A stretch of DNA of 64,000 nucleotides from positions 372,001-436,000 of the forward strand of contig NZ_BLJF01000002.1 of NCBI RefSeq assembly GCF_009932335.1. The letters run 5' to 3'. The notes beneath the pieces are model-generated. The model was not told the origin of the DNA. It did not search any database and worked only from the letters and a program-made list of their open reading frames with translations. The stretch is from Pseudomonas asiatica (GTDB taxonomy: Bacteria; Pseudomonadota; Gammaproteobacteria; Pseudomonadales; Pseudomonadaceae). A program made the translations under genes and the position numbers. This document shows, one piece after another, positions 56,704 to 62,302 of the stretch (positions are counted from its first letter, which is position 1; every line of letters begins with the position of its first letter).

Positions 56704-57909
56704 ATGAACCCTGCACTTACACGCTGGATAACCCTGCTGCTGGCCATTACCAGCGCCATGGCTGTGGCGACAGTGTATTTCGCCCAGCCTCTGCTCGAGT
56801 CGATGGCCGCTGACCTTGGCGTGGCGCAGCAGCAGATCGGTTGGGTAGTTGGCGCGACCCAGGCGGGCTACGCCCTGGGGTTGTTGCTGATCGTGCCGCT
56901 GGGTGACCTGATCGACCGCAAGCGCCTGCTGCTCGGGCAGTTGCTGTTCTCGGCCCTGGCGCTGGTTGGGGTAGGCATGGCGCCCAACTGGGCGCTATTG
57001 CTGCTGGCCCTGGCTATCACCGGGCTGATGGCGGTCATGGTGCAGGTGATGGTGGCGCATGCAGCGAGCCTTGCCGACCCCGGCCAGCAGGGGCAGGCCG
57101 TGGGCACCGTCACCAGCGGCATAGTGCTGGGCATTTTGCTGGCGCGGCTGGTCTCGGGCGGGCTTGCCGACCTGGCTGGCTGGCGCAGCGTGTACCTGAT
57201 TACCGCAGGGTTGTTGATACTGCTGGCCCTGGTGCTGTGGCGCAGCCTGCCCGTGGGGCAACCGGTGTCGCTGCGGTCTGGCTACCGGGCGCTGATCGTT
57301 GCCCAGTTCAGGCTGTACCGGCACGACCGGCTGCTACGTCAGCGCGGGTTGTTCGGCGTGTTGATCTTCGCTGCGTTCAGCGTGCTCTGGAGTGCCATGG
57401 TCATGCCCCTGAGTGCCGAGCCACTGGCGCTGAGCCATACCGCGATCGGTCTATTCGGCCTGGCGGGTGTTGCCGGCACATTGGCGGCAGCGCGCGCCGG
57501 TCGCCTGGCCGACCAGGGGCTGGGGGAGCGCACCACCGGGGTAGCGCTGATTCTGCTTGTGCTGTCATGGCTGCCCACGGCCTTCGTCGGGCATTCACTG
57601 ATGGCCTTCGGGTTGGGTGTGCTGATGCTGGACTTTGCCGTGCAGGCGGTGCATGTCACCAACCAGAGCCTGCTGCTGGCCGGGCGTGGCGCAATGGCCA
57701 GCCGTTTGATCGGCGCCTACATGTGCTGCTATTCGCTTGGCAGTGGAGTGGGGGCAGTGCTGGCGAGTTGGGTGTATGCCCATTGGGGTTGGGCAGCGGT
57801 GTGTGGGCTCGGGATGGGCATCAGCGCGGTCGCGCTGGGGTACTGGTTATGGCTGCAACGCGCGAGGGCGGCCGAAGCCGCCCTGCAGTGTTCAGGTCAG
57901 AACTTGTAG
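56704..57909 (+). CDS. MFS transporter, drug/sugar exporter type
   Basis: A 401-aa inner-membrane protein with 12 predicted helices; motif A is seen in PLGDLIDRKRLL. N-terminal AVATVYFAQPLLESMAADLGV is characteristic of a group of proteobacterial efflux MFS proteins. ATG 56704 was chosen (MNPALTRW); the open frame extends upstream into the operator region. Divergent from hxlR, and its 3' end overlaps the convergent ompW gene by 13 bases. The substrate is unknown. Confidence 0.87.
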   Translation: MNPALTRWITLLLAITSAMAVATVYFAQPLLESMAADLGVAQQQIGWVVGATQAGYALGLLLIVPLGDLIDRKRLLLGQLLFSALALVGVGMAPNWALLLLALAITGLMAVMVQVMVAHAASLADPGQQGQAVGTVTSGIVLGILLARLVSGGLADLAGWRSVYLITAGLLILLALVLWRSLPVGQPVSLRSGYRALIVAQFRLYRHDRLLRQRGLFGVLIFAAFSVLWSAMVMPLSAEPLALSHTAIGLFGLAGVAGTLAAARAGRLADQGLGERTTGVALILLVLSWLPTAFVGHSLMAFGLGVLMLDFAVQAVHVTNQSLLLAGRGAMASRLIGAYMCCYSLGSGVGAVLASWVYAHWGWAAVCGLGMGISAVALGYWLWLQRARAAEAALQCSGQNL

Positions 57910-58580
57910 CCAAGGCCGACCATGTACACCCATGGGTCGACATCGACGTCGACTTTGGTCTTGCTGTAGCCCAGTGCGGACGGGCCGTCGACGCTGGCCT
58001 TGGTGTCGATGTCGATGTACCAGACCGAAGCGTTGACCAGCAGGTTGTCGGTGATCATGTAGTCCATGCCCAGCTGACCGGCGATGCCGACCGAGTCTTG
58101 CAGCTTCAGGTTGCTGAAGCCCTGCTGCTTGCGTGCACTACTGAGGTCCTCATCGAAGAACAGGGTGTAGTTGATGCCGACGCCGGCATACGGCTGGAAC
58201 TTGGAAGTTGGTTCCATCGGGTAGTACTGCAACGACAGGGTCGGTGGCAGTTGCTTGATATCGGCCAACTTGCCGTCCAGGCCGCCGCCCAGACCTTTGA
58301 CGCCGACGGTGTGCTTGAACGGGGTGGCCGCCAGCAACTCGAGGCCGACATGGTCGGTGAGCATGTAGGCGAAGGTCAGGCCCAGTTGGGTGTCGCTGTC
58401 CAAGGTCGCCTTGGTGCCCGATACCTTGCTGCCGTCGAATTTCAGGTCGCCGCTGCTTTCGTTGGGGGCAACGGTGATGGCACCGGCACGGACGATGACA
58501 TCACCCGCCTGGTGGGCGTGGGCGACAGGGGCAGCGAGCGCCAGGGCCGCGAGGGCGGCGCTGAGCAAGGACTTGTTCAT
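57897..58580 (-). CDS. ompW: Outer membrane protein OmpW (OprG-like)
   Basis: A 227-aa eight-stranded beta barrel with a Sec signal peptide (MNKSLLSAALAALALAAPVAHAH). The sequence contains LGLTFAYMLTDHVGLELLAATPF and ends GLGYKF with a terminal Phe needed for barrel insertion. OmpW/OprG proteins let small hydrophobic molecules pass and are linked to anaerobic growth and iron. Start ATG 58580; an Anr-type promoter lies upstream. Confidence 0.93.
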   Translation of the reverse strand: MNKSLLSAALAALALAAPVAHAHQAGDVIVRAGAITVAPNESSGDLKFDGSKVSGTKATLDSDTQLGLTFAYMLTDHVGLELLAATPFKHTVGVKGLGGGLDGKLADIKQLPPTLSLQYYPMEPTSKFQPYAGVGINYTLFFDEDLSSARKQQGFSNLKLQDSVGIAGQLGMDYMITDNLLVNASVWYIDIDTKASVDGPSALGYSKTKVDVDVDPWVYMVGLGYKF

Positions 58581-58689: not shown

Positions 58690-59262
58690 TCATCTCAGCT
58701 CATAAGCGTATATTTTCTCGGCTTCCATCTGGTAGCCGGCATCGGCCAGTTCGCTGCTGGAGGCTCTAACCTGCAGCTTCCCCTCGATCCAGTAGGGCTG
58801 GTAGAGGTCTTCTACGCGAACGCCCATTTCACTGAAGATGTGCACGATCTGGTTCGACGGTGGCGGTGGCACGTGGATGCACGCGCCGTAGTAGGGGACC
58901 AGCAGGAATTCGGTGGTGCGGCCTTCTTCGCTCACCTCCAGCGGCACGATGTAGCCGGGCAGTTTGATCTGCTGGCCGTCGAGGCTTTTTACCACTGGAG
59001 CATCGGGGGCCTGCTGGCGCGCCGGTGGGGCGGACTCGGCGGACAGGGCGTTGCTGAGCTGCGACATGTCGTGCAACGGCGCGAGTTGGGGCGGGATGAC
59101 CGGGGCGCCTTCGGGGATGAGGGCGGGCCAGTCAAGTTCGCGGGGTTCCGAGGCCCAGATGGGCGATGCCAGCGAAAGCAGCATGACCAGTAGTAGTTGT
59201 ACTGCCTGTACTGGCCTCTTCGCGGGTTCACCCGCGAAGAAGGCCGTGAGGTATTGGATCAT
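58690..59262 (-). CDS. DUF3299 periplasmic protein of the zinc-linked ABC operon
   Basis: A 190-aa exported protein. The C-terminal half shows the DUF3299 core LPGYIVPLE, TEFLLVPYYGACIHVPPPPSNQIVHI; the Cys/His residues there could bind metal. A signal peptide (LLLVMLLSLASPIWASE) lies at about 23-38. ATG 59262 has GAGGG 9-13 bases upstream and starts nine bases after the permease stop. The n-region codons (AFFAGEPAKRP) come from a REP hairpin. ATG 59184 would leave no positive n-region. Last gene of the operon. Confidence 0.82.
   Translation of the reverse strand: MIQYLTAFFAGEPAKRPVQAVQLLLVMLLSLASPIWASEPRELDWPALIPEGAPVIPPQLAPLHDMSQLSNALSAESAPPARQQAPDAPVVKSLDGQQIKLPGYIVPLEVSEEGRTTEFLLVPYYGACIHVPPPPSNQIVHIFSEMGVRVEDLYQPYWIEGKLQVRASSSELADAGYQMEAEKIYAYELR
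59213..59245. repeat. REP hairpin inside the DUF3299 gene
   Basis: CTTCGCGGG (59218-59226), TTCA, CCCGCGAAG (59231-59239), with an outer GGCCT/AGGCC extension. A single REP unit placed in frame at codons 6-17 of the DUF3299 gene. Confidence 0.85.
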
Positions 59263-59271
59263 TGCACGCCC

Positions 59272-60537
59272 TCAGAGGTGAATGGACAAGCCATCGGCCA
59301 ACGACTGCCGATAGGCCCGCCACGCCGGTACGCTGCCCATCAACAGCGCAGCTCCCAGGATGATAGCCAGCAACGTCCATTCATGAGCACTCGGCATGGC
59401 CAGCGGCAAGTACAAACCATAGTTGGCCTGCACATACCCTTGTGCCAAGGCGATTCCCGCATACAGCAAGCCAAGCCCTGCAGCGATCCCGACCGCCGCC
59501 AGCGACAGTGCCTCCAGCACCAGCAGCCCTGCGATATGCCACGGCCTGGCACCAACCGAGCGCAATATCGCCATCTCCCTACGGCGTTCATTGAGGCTGG
59601 TGAGAATCGCCGTAAGCATGCCGATCAGGCCGGTCAGCACCACGAACAGCGACACCACGAACAACGCCTGCTCCGCGGTGCCCATCAGGCTCCACAGCTC
59701 CTGCAGGGCTACCCCGGGCAGGATCGCCAGCAACGGCTCGCTGCGGTATTCATTGATCTCCCGCTGCAGGCTGAATGTCGCGATCTTGCTGTTCAGGCCG
59801 AGCATGAACGCAGTGATGGCGGCAGGCTGCAGGTCCATGGTCCGTGCCTGCTCGGCGCTGATACGCCCGGCGCCACGGGCCGGCACCCCGTTGTGCCAGT
59901 CGATGTGGATGGCTTCCATGCCGCCCAGGCTGATATGCAGCGTGCGGTCGACCGGTGTGCCGGTGCGCTTGAGCACTCCGACCACGGTGAACGGCTTGTC
60001 GTCGTGCTTGACCAGGCTGATCGCGGCCACGCCGTGGGCAAGCACCAGCTTGTCGCCCAGTTTGTAGTGCAACGCCTCGGCCACTTCGGCACCCAGCACC
60101 ACCTCGAACGGATCATCGGCAAACGCGCGGCCCTGGCTCAATTCCAGGTGCTGGCGGCGGCCGTACTGGTAATGGCTGAAGTAGTCGCCGGTAGTGCCCA
60201 TCACCCGATAACCACGGTGCGAGTCGCCCAGCGAGATGGGGATGGTCCATTTCACCCGCGGGTCCTTGGCGTAGTGCTCATAGCTGTCCCAACGGATATT
60301 GTTGGTGGCGTTGCCGATGCGGAACACCGAGTACAACAGCAGGTTCACCGAGCCGGAGCGGGCGCCGACGATCAGGTCGGTACCGCTTATGGTGCTGGCG
60401 AAGCTGGCCCGGGCCTCGGTACGGACCCGCTCAACGGCCAGCAGCAGGCACACCGACAGGGCGATGGCGAAGGCGGTGAGGAATGCGGTGAAGCGGCGGT
60501 TGGCCAGGCTGGCCAAGGCAAGGCGGAGCAGGTACAT
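59272..60537 (-). CDS. ABC transporter permease, MacB/FtsX type
   Basis: A 421-aa inner-membrane protein with one N-terminal helix, a large periplasmic domain (about 50-280) and three C-terminal helices carrying an FtsX domain (TGLIGMLTAILTSLNERRREMAILRSVGARP). Such permeases do mechanotransmission or lipoprotein/peptide export rather than simple channel import. ATG 60537 overlaps the ATPase stop (TGATG). Part of the Zur-box operon. Confidence 0.88.
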   Translation of the reverse strand: MYLLRLALASLANRRFTAFLTAFAIALSVCLLLAVERVRTEARASFASTISGTDLIVGARSGSVNLLLYSVFRIGNATNNIRWDSYEHYAKDPRVKWTIPISLGDSHRGYRVMGTTGDYFSHYQYGRRQHLELSQGRAFADDPFEVVLGAEVAEALHYKLGDKLVLAHGVAAISLVKHDDKPFTVVGVLKRTGTPVDRTLHISLGGMEAIHIDWHNGVPARGAGRISAEQARTMDLQPAAITAFMLGLNSKIATFSLQREINEYRSEPLLAILPGVALQELWSLMGTAEQALFVVSLFVVLTGLIGMLTAILTSLNERRREMAILRSVGARPWHIAGLLVLEALSLAAVGIAAGLGLLYAGIALAQGYVQANYGLYLPLAMPSAHEWTLLAIILGAALLMGSVPAWRAYRQSLADGLSIHL

Positions 60538-61247
60538 CAGGCCTCCCGGGGCTTGGCGGCGCGGTTGAGTTCGGCCAGCGACAGGTGGCGGTCGAACAGC
60601 GGCGCCAGGCTTTGGTCGTGGCTGACGAACAGCAGGCTGGCACCGGCGGCGCGGCATTCATCGAACAGCAGGCGGATGAACGCTTCGCGGGTGTCGGCAT
60701 CCAGCGCCGAGGTCGGTTCGTCGGCGATCACCAGTTCGGGTTGGCCGATCAGTGCGCGGGCGGCAGCAACCCGTTGCTGCTGGCCGATCGACAGGCTGTC
60801 GGCGCGGCGGGCGAGCAGGGCGGGGTCGTCCAGGCCCAGGTGGGCCAGCAAGGTGCTGGCTGCCTGGTCGACACTGCCATGGCGCTGCTCGGCGCGGGCC
60901 TTGCGGCTGCGCGAGAAGCGGCAGGGCAGCTCGACGTTTTCGCGCACCGAGAAGAACGGCAGCAGGTTGAACTGCTGGAAGATATAACCGGTGTGGTCGA
61001 CCCGGAAGCGGTCACGGGCGCCCTGGCCCAGACGGCAGAGGTCTTGGCCGAGCAACTGGATGCGGCCCTGGCCCGGTACGTTCACCCCGCCCAGCAGGCC
61101 CAGCAATGTGGTCTTGCCACTGCCGCTGGGGCCCTTGAGAAACAGGGCTTCGCCAGCTTCCAGGCGGAATGCCGGAATATCCAGCAGCGCCGGCTGTCCG
61201 GGCCAGGCGAAGACCAGGTCATGCAGTTCGATCAACGGCTGGCGCAT
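60537..61247 (-). CDS. ABC transporter ATP-binding protein, LolD/MacB type
   Basis: A 236-aa ATPase: Walker A GPSGSGKTT (about 40-48), Q-loop FQQFNLLPFF, signature LSIGQQQR (a variant of LSGGQ), Walker B LVIADEPTSALD, and the switch His in FVSHD. It powers the following MacB/FtsX-like permease. ATG 61247 directly follows the zrgA-like stop codon (TGAATG). Confidence 0.92.
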   Translation of the reverse strand: MRQPLIELHDLVFAWPGQPALLDIPAFRLEAGEALFLKGPSGSGKTTLLGLLGGVNVPGQGRIQLLGQDLCRLGQGARDRFRVDHTGYIFQQFNLLPFFSVRENVELPCRFSRSRKARAEQRHGSVDQAASTLLAHLGLDDPALLARRADSLSIGQQQRVAAARALIGQPELVIADEPTSALDADTREAFIRLLFDECRAAGASLLFVSHDQSLAPLFDRHLSLAELNRAAKPREA

Positions 61248-61826
61248 TCAGAACACGACCGCAGCCTTGGCTGGCGTGGCTTCCGCGCCTTTCTGGCCAT
61301 TGGGGCCGATCAGTTGAACGGTGATTTTCTGGGTAGCCGGGAACGCCTTGAACAGCGGAGCGAGGTCCACCTGCGCCAGTTTGTCGGGGTTGGCGCAGGT
61401 CAGCTGGTAATGGGCGCCGATGTCGCTGTGCTGGTGGCTGTGCTCGTGGTCGTCACCATCGTCGTCGGCTTTCGGGGCATCACCGAACAGCGGGCTTTCC
61501 AGTTCCTGCTGGTCTTCCTTGCAACCGGCAGCGGCGGGCAGGCCGAACAGCTTCAGTGGCTGCTCCAGCTGCTGGCGCACCGCCGCGACCTTGGCCTTGT
61601 CGGCGTCGCTGTTGGCAGCGTGTTCGAAGCCGACCAGATTCATTGCCGGGCTGTCCAACTCCAGCTCCAGAGTGTTGCCATCGAGCACGGCATTGAGCTT
61701 GGCCACGCCATGCTCGTGGGCGCCGAGGGTGCCGTGGGCGTGGTCGTGATTGTGGTCATCATCGTGGGCATGGGCCACGGCCAGTGGCAGCAAGGCGAAG
61801 GGCAGGGCAAGCAACAGGCGACGCAT
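61248..61826 (-). CDS. zrgA: ZrgA-like His-rich periplasmic zinc protein (DUF2796)
   Basis: A 192-aa exported protein with signal peptide MRRLLLALPFALLPLAVAHA. His/Asp clusters HDDDHNHDHAHG near the mature N terminus and DDDGDDHEHSHQHSD in the middle are likely zinc sites. The body (GAHEHGVAKLNAVLDGNTLELELDSPAMNLVGFEH) matches ZrgA, the zinc-regulated uptake protein known in Vibrio. ATG 61826 has GGAG nine bases upstream; ATG 61847 is less likely. First gene of a four-gene operon under a Zur-like box. Confidence 0.85.
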   Translation of the reverse strand: MRRLLLALPFALLPLAVAHAHDDDHNHDHAHGTLGAHEHGVAKLNAVLDGNTLELELDSPAMNLVGFEHAANSDADKAKVAAVRQQLEQPLKLFGLPAAAGCKEDQQELESPLFGDAPKADDDGDDHEHSHQHSDIGAHYQLTCANPDKLAQVDLAPLFKAFPATQKITVQLIGPNGQKGAEATPAKAAVVF

Positions 61827-61856
61827 GGATGACTCCGGAGCGGGCAAGAAGATTGG

Positions 61857-61869
61857 GTTATGTTATAAC
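61857..61869 (-). promoter_or_regulatory. Zur-box-like palindrome before zrgA
   Basis: GTTAT-GTT-ATAAC (61857-61869), 31 bases before the zrgA start. It has the form of gammaproteobacterial Zur operators (GTTATA..TATAAC) and would cover the -10 region (TATAAC on the minus strand). Confidence 0.7.
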
Positions 61870-61957: not shown

Positions 61958-62302
61958 ATGAGAATTCGTGGACAGATTGGTGATTGGCCTGTGGACCTGA
62001 CCATCGAGCTGGCGCCTGAAGAGTGGGCACAACTGGGGCGGCAGATCGAATTGCCCGCAGTGGCGCAGACCGCAGCAACCGAAACCGTGGCGACAACGCG
62101 TCAGGATGACGGGCAATGGACTGCGGCGCGTGAGGTGTTGCGCCTGGCGGGGCAGATGAGCGGGCCGGAATTGCTGGATCGGCTCGAAGGGCTGGCGGGA
62201 AGTACGGCGGCGGGTAAGCGGCTGCTGGTGCGCTTGCGGCATAGCAGTGAAGTCAAGGTGGAAAGTGGCGTGGACGCGCCGGTGTATCACTGGGTTGGGT
62301 GA
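61958..62302 (+). CDS. Hypothetical protein
   Basis: A 114-aa protein of unknown function, MRIRGQIGDWPVDLTIELAP. It has no signal peptide or membrane segment, is acidic and Ala-rich in the middle, and ends in VRLRHSSEVKVESGVDAPVYHWVG. I recall a similar small gene between the zinc-linked operon and a thioredoxin gene in other pseudomonads. It is divergent from zrgA (131 bases apart). The start ATG 61958 is the first one; no strong RBS was identified. Confidence 0.65.
   Translation: MRIRGQIGDWPVDLTIELAPEEWAQLGRQIELPAVAQTAATETVATTRQDDGQWTAAREVLRLAGQMSGPELLDRLEGLAGSTAAGKRLLVRLRHSSEVKVESGVDAPVYHWVG

Follow-up and report, generated by a model that had tools for sequence, protein, structure and literature searches.

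The closest described systems to the operon studied here are PA4063-PA4066 of Pseudomonas aeruginosa and zrgABCDE of Vibrio cholerae and V. parahaemolyticus. The operon lies in a 64,000-nucleotide stretch of Pseudomonas asiatica DNA (contig NZ_BLJF01000002.1, hereafter the window; G000:C2:372001-436000, where G, C and L are our handles for genomes, contigs and loci), from a genome of 5.97 Mb. Its four genes, all on the minus strand, code for the His-rich protein ZrgA, an ATP-binding cassette (ABC) ATPase, a MacB/FtsX-type permease and a DUF3299 protein (Table 1). According to the available parts of the papers cited here and below, PA4063-PA4066 responds to zinc and to Zur in P. aeruginosa (PMC4542158, PMC11481552), and zrgA is required for zinc-poor growth in znuA-deleted V. 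cholerae (PMC9820375) and in V. parahaemolyticus (PMC9817125). PA4063 binds two zinc ions with micromolar affinity, two to three orders weaker than ZnuA, ZinT and AztD (PMC8561739), while V. cholerae ZrgA binds up to ten, with four sites of Kd below 1 µM (PMC9820375). In P. aeruginosa PA14 lacking znuA and zrmB, deletion of the permease gene PA4065 worsens growth and raises the zinc demand, does not lower cell zinc further and leads to accumulation of cobalt and pyochelin; with pchE deleted as well, cobalt no longer accumulates and the zinc demand is no longer raised, and pyochelin-cobalt export was proposed as the job of PA4063-PA4066 (PMC11481552). The mechanism is disputed in print between this and zinc import, two incompatible proposals. 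An earlier sequence-only reading of the window had rightly called it not established, and did not include the pyochelin-cobalt alternative. We tentatively propose that the operon encodes a zinc-starvation-induced, LolCDE/MacB-like machine for metal handover in the periplasm.

The window operon is a near-universal Pseudomonas gene set and belongs to the already known ZrgA/PA4063-PA4066 system. Gene order, protein families and the Zur-type box upstream are all as in PA4063-PA4066, the zinc-responsive operon that the sequence-only reading had recognized as its counterpart. ZrgA and DUF3299 are each found in 199 of 199 Pseudomonas genomes; in a sample of the phylum, ZrgA occurs in 75 of 398 genomes (66 over the cut-off) and DUF3299 in 93. 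With the Vibrio systems the operon shares ZrgA, the ATPase, the MacB-like permease, DUF3299 (ZrgE) and, judging by its box, Zur control, but it lacks zrgD: no such gene (DUF2607) was found between the four operon genes. Most Vibrio operons include zrgD; it is not defining for Zrg systems, as some Vibrionaceae are without it (PMC9817125). The first product had been read as a His-rich zinc protein, which its family (PF10986) and the zinc binding of PA4063 bear out. ZrgA matches the structures of PA4063 (7ahw, E 4.4e-66) and V. cholerae ZrgA (8ezw, E 1.8e-20), and its significant structure matches are limited to ZrgA-type structures. In our own reading of the alignment, the PA4063 site b ligands His16, His18 and Glu47, with His120, are kept, whereas site a keeps Glu87 and His126 but is short of one His ligand (His124 to Gly). 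Pfam and NCBIfam label the family ‘zinc uptake protein’; against the NCBIfam equivalog NF047873 the window protein scores 110.6, below the cut-off of 185.

The permease has a MacB/LolCDE-type fold, with FtsX and MacB_PCD domains, four long helices and a large periplasmic domain, in agreement with the MacB/FtsX type assigned from the sequence at first. Permease and ZrgA do not fit an importer of the ZnuABC type, as neither a many-helix permease nor a cluster A-I binding protein is found among them. The best NCBIfam models for the ATPase are DevA (156.6 bits), LolD (154.4) and FtsE (142.5), all under their cut-offs, and the permease scores 34.5 bits against the lolCE model (cut-off 362.45). Compared with LolCDE, the window has one permease gene instead of two, with a His-bearing periplasmic domain; compared with MacAB-TolC, the MacB fold is shared, but the ATPase is a separate chain and not fused ahead of the membrane part. 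No MacA-like adaptor was found among the seven region proteins scanned, and no search for a distant gene was made. The permease profile has six matches in its own genome, one of them the permease gene itself; the other five are confined to residues 275-417, the FtsX part at the C terminus, and leave out the periplasmic domain.

It is this periplasmic domain that carries a set of residues of metal-binding type, D105, H107, H168, H178, D197 and H211, which suggests that the permease itself may bind metal. All six are present in 121 of 121 rows of a protein-database alignment, the rows being selected by the query. The set is complete in 64 of 75 rows of a family sample (8 rows lack H107 only, and 3 are split-frame pieces). 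Across 17 diverse permeases, of which one has 28% identity, D105, H168, H178, D197 and H211 are invariant.

The DUF3299 protein matches 4hsp, the structure of PA4066 (E 4.7e-56, about 60% identity), an OB-like fold without an assigned role in the available account. CcmE, represented in the Foldseek list by 8ce8_E and 1lm0, also has an OB fold. The conserved Cys/His motif noticed at the outset holds up: C128 and H130, forming a Cys-x-His pair, are invariant in 18 of 18 DUF3299 members, which have in common the motif GAC[IL]HxPPPPxNQ (one has GGC). In a distant operon (L302, 3434-6738), the ATPase and permease genes are accompanied by three tandem DUF3299-like genes in which CPFCPP or CFFCPP takes the place of the Cys-x-His motif, as though the motif His had been exchanged for a Cys. 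Almost all Pseudomonas genomes listed have two DUF3299 matches each; G035 has one and G168 six. The second gene of the present genome (L155, G000:C3:225265-225702) carries the motif GACIHVPPPPPNQ and follows an open reading frame (ORF) that we take to be purK. A REP-like palindrome, TTCGCGGGTGAACCCGCGAA, is found within the reading frame of the leader of the window's DUF3299 gene. The inserts in this leader differ in length among near relatives, some of which have none, and the repeats appear to insert in frame.

Relatives without ZrgA provide a further indication of metal handling. L290, L299 and L300 are divergent loci whose genomes give no ZrgA match, and their permeases have a His-rich insertion directly after H211. 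That of L300 is identical to a Psychromonas protein, and similar loops, with up to 68 His, occur in proteins labelled Psychromonas, Thalassotalea, Pseudoalteromonas, Aliivibrio and Vibrio vulnificus; loops with at least 8 His are present in 88 of the 121 query-selected rows. Among 147 genomes sampled from the family of G429, the permease is found in 107 and ZrgA in 53. The loop was read in 71 genomes of this family, 46 without and 25 with ZrgA. At least 5 His follow H211 in 35/46 genomes without ZrgA, versus 1/25 of those with ZrgA (one-sided Mann-Whitney p 2e-10 by genome; p 3e-6 by genus means, 26 versus 13 genera). This is suggestive of a His-rich function exchanged between a separate ZrgA and a permease loop, and such an exchange would place the docking site of ZrgA near that loop. 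The His-loop relatives of the permease are a new observation; in the part of the literature searched, no mention of the loop or of its exchange with ZrgA was found.

Upstream of zrgA, in a 131-nt divergent intergenic region, lies the Zur-box-like palindrome GTTATGTTATAAC, which reads GTTATAACATAAC on the coding strand. At a limit of one mismatch it is the only match in the window, against 0.31 expected. The exact 13-mer has 2 copies in the 5.97-Mb genome, where about 1 is expected from base composition by our own arithmetic, and genome-wide there are 22 sites with at most one mismatch versus 23 in a reversed control. Since the exact count is close to the base-composition expectation, the box sequence taken alone is weak evidence. 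Conservation in place, on the other hand, is strong evidence for a Zur-like box. In 130 of the 199 genomes, taken as the 30 best loci followed by the 100 ranking next in score, a box with at most two mismatches occurs in 130/130 zrgA upstream regions (12 exact, 111 with one mismatch, 7 with two), versus 2/130 reversed controls. Of 80 named loci, 79 have ZrgA, and 78/79 carry such a box versus 6/79 controls. Zero or one mismatch is seen in 73 of these loci, two in 5 and three in 1; the corresponding control counts are 2 with zero or one and 4 with two. Placing a four-gene operon behind this box, as the sequence-only reading did, also agrees with the gene calls and Pfam.

For the putida and syringae groups, a review using the consensus GWWAYWNNNTWHCR describes PA4063 as a gene whose Zur control ‘seems to be lacking’ (PMC10393844, available part). 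This consensus misses the window's own box, a difference from P. aeruginosa, and matches only 77/130 and 45/79 of the zrgA promoters. Among L203-L212, the ten loci that head the scan, it matches 0/10, whereas a box with at most one mismatch is present in 10/10, 6 of them exact. By the DUF3299 scan, P. pudica, P. capeferrum and P. parafulva, which we take to belong to the putida group, are among the nearest named relatives. P. congelans and P. floridensis, presumably of the syringae group, carry GTTATAAGATCAC and fail the consensus, while three loci titled P. putida (L218, L235 and L266) pass it. Because GWWAYWNNNTWHCR misses boxes that are conserved in place, the published loss of Zur control in these two groups is probably a fault of the pattern.

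Only one other exact GTTATNNNATAAC occurs in the genome (L002, 1501-1513; G000:C1:1352395), and it adjoins a 388-aa membrane-protein-like ORF. Two probable further Zur targets have one-mismatch boxes: zigA (L019), with the box in front of it, and an ORF for a ZnuD-like receptor (L015), with the box at its 5' end.

The proposed handover machine would work as follows. Zinc-loaded Zur would hold the box and let go at low zinc, as others have shown in P. aeruginosa. ZrgA, with its flexible His-rich stretches and conserved site b, would collect periplasmic Zn2+, in line with the zinc binding that others have shown for homologues, and would then dock on the permease at its periplasmic domain, which bears a conserved His/Asp set as well. 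Judging from the fold, hydrolysis by the LolD-like ATPase may drive a mechanical relay through the four-helix membrane part, so that the periplasmic domain opens and closes as in MacB and LolCDE. The invariant Cys-x-His of the OB-fold DUF3299 protein would then receive the metal, and this protein would supply a client in the periplasm or outer membrane, which might be a metalloenzyme or a further zinc carrier. Passage of the ion through the permease across the inner membrane is not needed in this scheme. NosDFY-NosL and CcmABCDE, which handle metal or heme with ABC machines, are an analogy only: they too combine such a machine with a small periplasmic carrier in cofactor handling, and the carrier CcmE resembles DUF3299 in its OB fold.

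Metal-related genes are among the neighbours in some relatives. By family search they include a Zur-like regulator (under its curated cut-off) with dihydroorotase (L287), a CobW GTPase (L352), FolE2 (L283) and DmeF with a metal-sensitive repressor (L344). M1 peptidases occur in L289 and L302. In L335 (520-3850), an alkaline phosphatase gene lies 17 nt before the mechanical start of the ATPase gene; the ABC pair there is ZrgA-less with a His-rich permease loop, and the phosphatase is a possible periplasmic metalloenzyme client. These cases are picked singles and not counts, and other loci examined have neighbours without an evident metal link. The sequence-only reading had suggested zinc release from, or delivery to, a partner in the periplasm or outer membrane. 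Overall, the comparative data favour periplasmic metal handling, short of proof and perhaps with zinc not as the sole metal.

Several observations weigh against a periplasmic handover. Metal binding by the permease and the DUF3299 protein is something we infer, and the conserved His and Asp residues need not lie close together in the fold. Both ZrgA and a His loop are missing from the distant L302, 11 of the 46 ZrgA-less genomes have a His-poor loop, and no ABC gene was found in the 3.4 kb read around the second DUF3299 gene. Kinship weakens the exchange signal: a tree of 69 rows has 7 changes of ZrgA and 11 of the loop, and its 5 supported independent contrasts, too few for proof, are never in the same direction; on average 2.4 are in the opposite direction and 2.6 show no difference (sign test, median p 0.5). 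A Zur-like box with at most one mismatch is present in 6/46 ZrgA-less operons (control 0/46), and with at most two mismatches the count is no better than the control (12 versus 10); operons with ZrgA from the same family have a box with at most one mismatch in 11/25 cases (control 0/25). L300, which is outside the 71-genome set, has an exact box. Because few ZrgA-less operons have a Zur-like box, many of these relatives may not respond to zinc. As far as the published accounts go, growth of V. cholerae is unaffected by knockout of zrgD or zrgE by itself (PMC9820375), the effects of the permease mutant on zinc demand and growth appear only in the znuA zrmB background, and the mutant's promoter effect disappears when pyochelin is not made (PMC11481552).

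Another view is that the system is a true zinc importer, with ZrgA a new kind of solute-binding protein and ZrgBC moving Zn2+ across the inner membrane. This would directly explain why zrg aids zinc-poor growth in V. cholerae and V. parahaemolyticus, and it accords with the family name and with zinc binding by ZrgA; the four sub-micromolar sites of the V. cholerae protein suit an importer's binding protein better than those of PA4063. These points, too, count against periplasmic handover. We nevertheless regard import as rather unlikely: the permease has the LolCDE/MacB fold and, to our knowledge, no characterised member of that fold imports ions. In addition, cell zinc did not drop further on PA4065 deletion in the znuA zrmB background (PMC11481552), and the affinity of PA4063 is well under that of the periplasmic zinc proteins named above (PMC8561739).

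A general, HrtBA-like exporter or remover, tied to no one chelator, that would clear the inner membrane or periplasm of surplus metal or metal chelates is improbable. Metal export during zinc starvation is hard to square with Zur control, and the four genes include no outer-membrane or adaptor partner.

We give still less weight to the reading published for P. aeruginosa, in which a MacB-type transporter exports pyochelin, free or in complex with cobalt. The pchE-dependent accumulation of pyochelin and cobalt in the PA14 mutant speaks for it, although pyochelin export also occurs without this transporter (PMC11481552, available part). The conserved His and the His-rich loops suit metal ions and not pyochelin, and the operon has no MacA-like adaptor among the proteins scanned. 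The distribution points the same way. TIGR01761 (thiazolinyl imide reductase) is presumably a pyochelin/yersiniabactin-type marker that covers P. aeruginosa PchG; it is a single marker and not proof, and also matches control genomes including E. coli. Unlike in P. aeruginosa, a profile search of the present genome gave no TIGR01761 match at E 0.001, and it matches 15 of the 199 Pseudomonas genomes, 11 over the cut-off, as against ZrgA in all 199. With ZrgA and DUF3299 genus-wide and this marker rare, pyochelin is unlikely to be the general cargo of the system; its export could hold for P. aeruginosa alone. A sensor or regulator, in which ZrgA reads periplasmic zinc and the ABC machine switches, for example, ZnuABC or an envelope enzyme, has equally poor prospects, given that the ABC part is retained in ZrgA-less relatives and that there is no known partner. 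Such a role has been proposed as an alternative for PA4063 (PMC8561739). In its favour, type VII ABC proteins such as FtsEX switch periplasmic enzymes.

The operon genes are tightly coupled. The 1-base TGATG overlap between ATPase and permease genes and the 9-base gap before the DUF3299 gene are as first described; at the TGAATG junction of zrgA and the ATPase gene, which had been counted as an overlap, the genes abut with zero overlap.

Table 1. Features of the Zrg operon and its surroundings; positions are those of the window.
Feature	Position	Strand	Description
OmpW-family outer-membrane gene	57897-58580	-	109 nt downstream of the operon
DUF3299 protein (ZrgE/PA4066 type)	58690-59262	-	190 aa; PF11736, E 5.3e-47; OB fold behind leader
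REP-like palindrome	59219-59238		in the DUF3299 leader
Permease, type VII (MacB/LolCDE/FtsX-type)	59272-60537	-	421 aa; FtsX PF02687 and MacB_PCD PF12704
ABC ATPase, LolD/FtsE/DevA-like	60537-61247	-	236 aa; ABC_tran PF00005, E 1.4e-28
zrgA	61248-61826	-	192 aa; secreted His-rich zinc-binding protein family; PF10986, E 1.1e-54
Zur-box-like palindrome GTTATGTTATAAC	61857-61869		30 nt 5' of the zrgA ATG; sequence match
Divergent ORF	61958-62302	+	114 aa

Two genes flank the operon. An OmpW match lies at most 400 nt behind DUF3299 in 58 of the 80 named loci, and the OmpW-family gene may share transcription or function with the operon. The divergent ORF lies on the far side of the 131-nt promoter region that holds the box, which could co-regulate it; a homologue is present in 74 of the 80 named loci, its distance to zrgA being measured for part of them.

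Zrg is a strong zinc-starvation response of Pseudomonas and Vibrio to which two incompatible jobs have been ascribed in print, and the comparison makes this dispute testable through the six permease residues, the Cys/His pair of DUF3299, the His-loop relatives and a genus-wide distribution out of step with pyochelin. The comparison also suggests a correction of the published view that the putida and syringae groups lack Zur control of the operon. If true, the swap between ZrgA and a permease loop would amount to natural proof of the ZrgA docking site. It is conceivable, if rather doubtful at present, that Zrg-type machines are the first LolCDE/MacB-type ABC proteins with a metal-ion cargo handled wholly in the periplasm, in which the His/Asp site of the permease would take metal from a His-rich sponge, either ZrgA or the permease loop, and hand it to the DUF3299 Cys-x-His carrier that loads clients.

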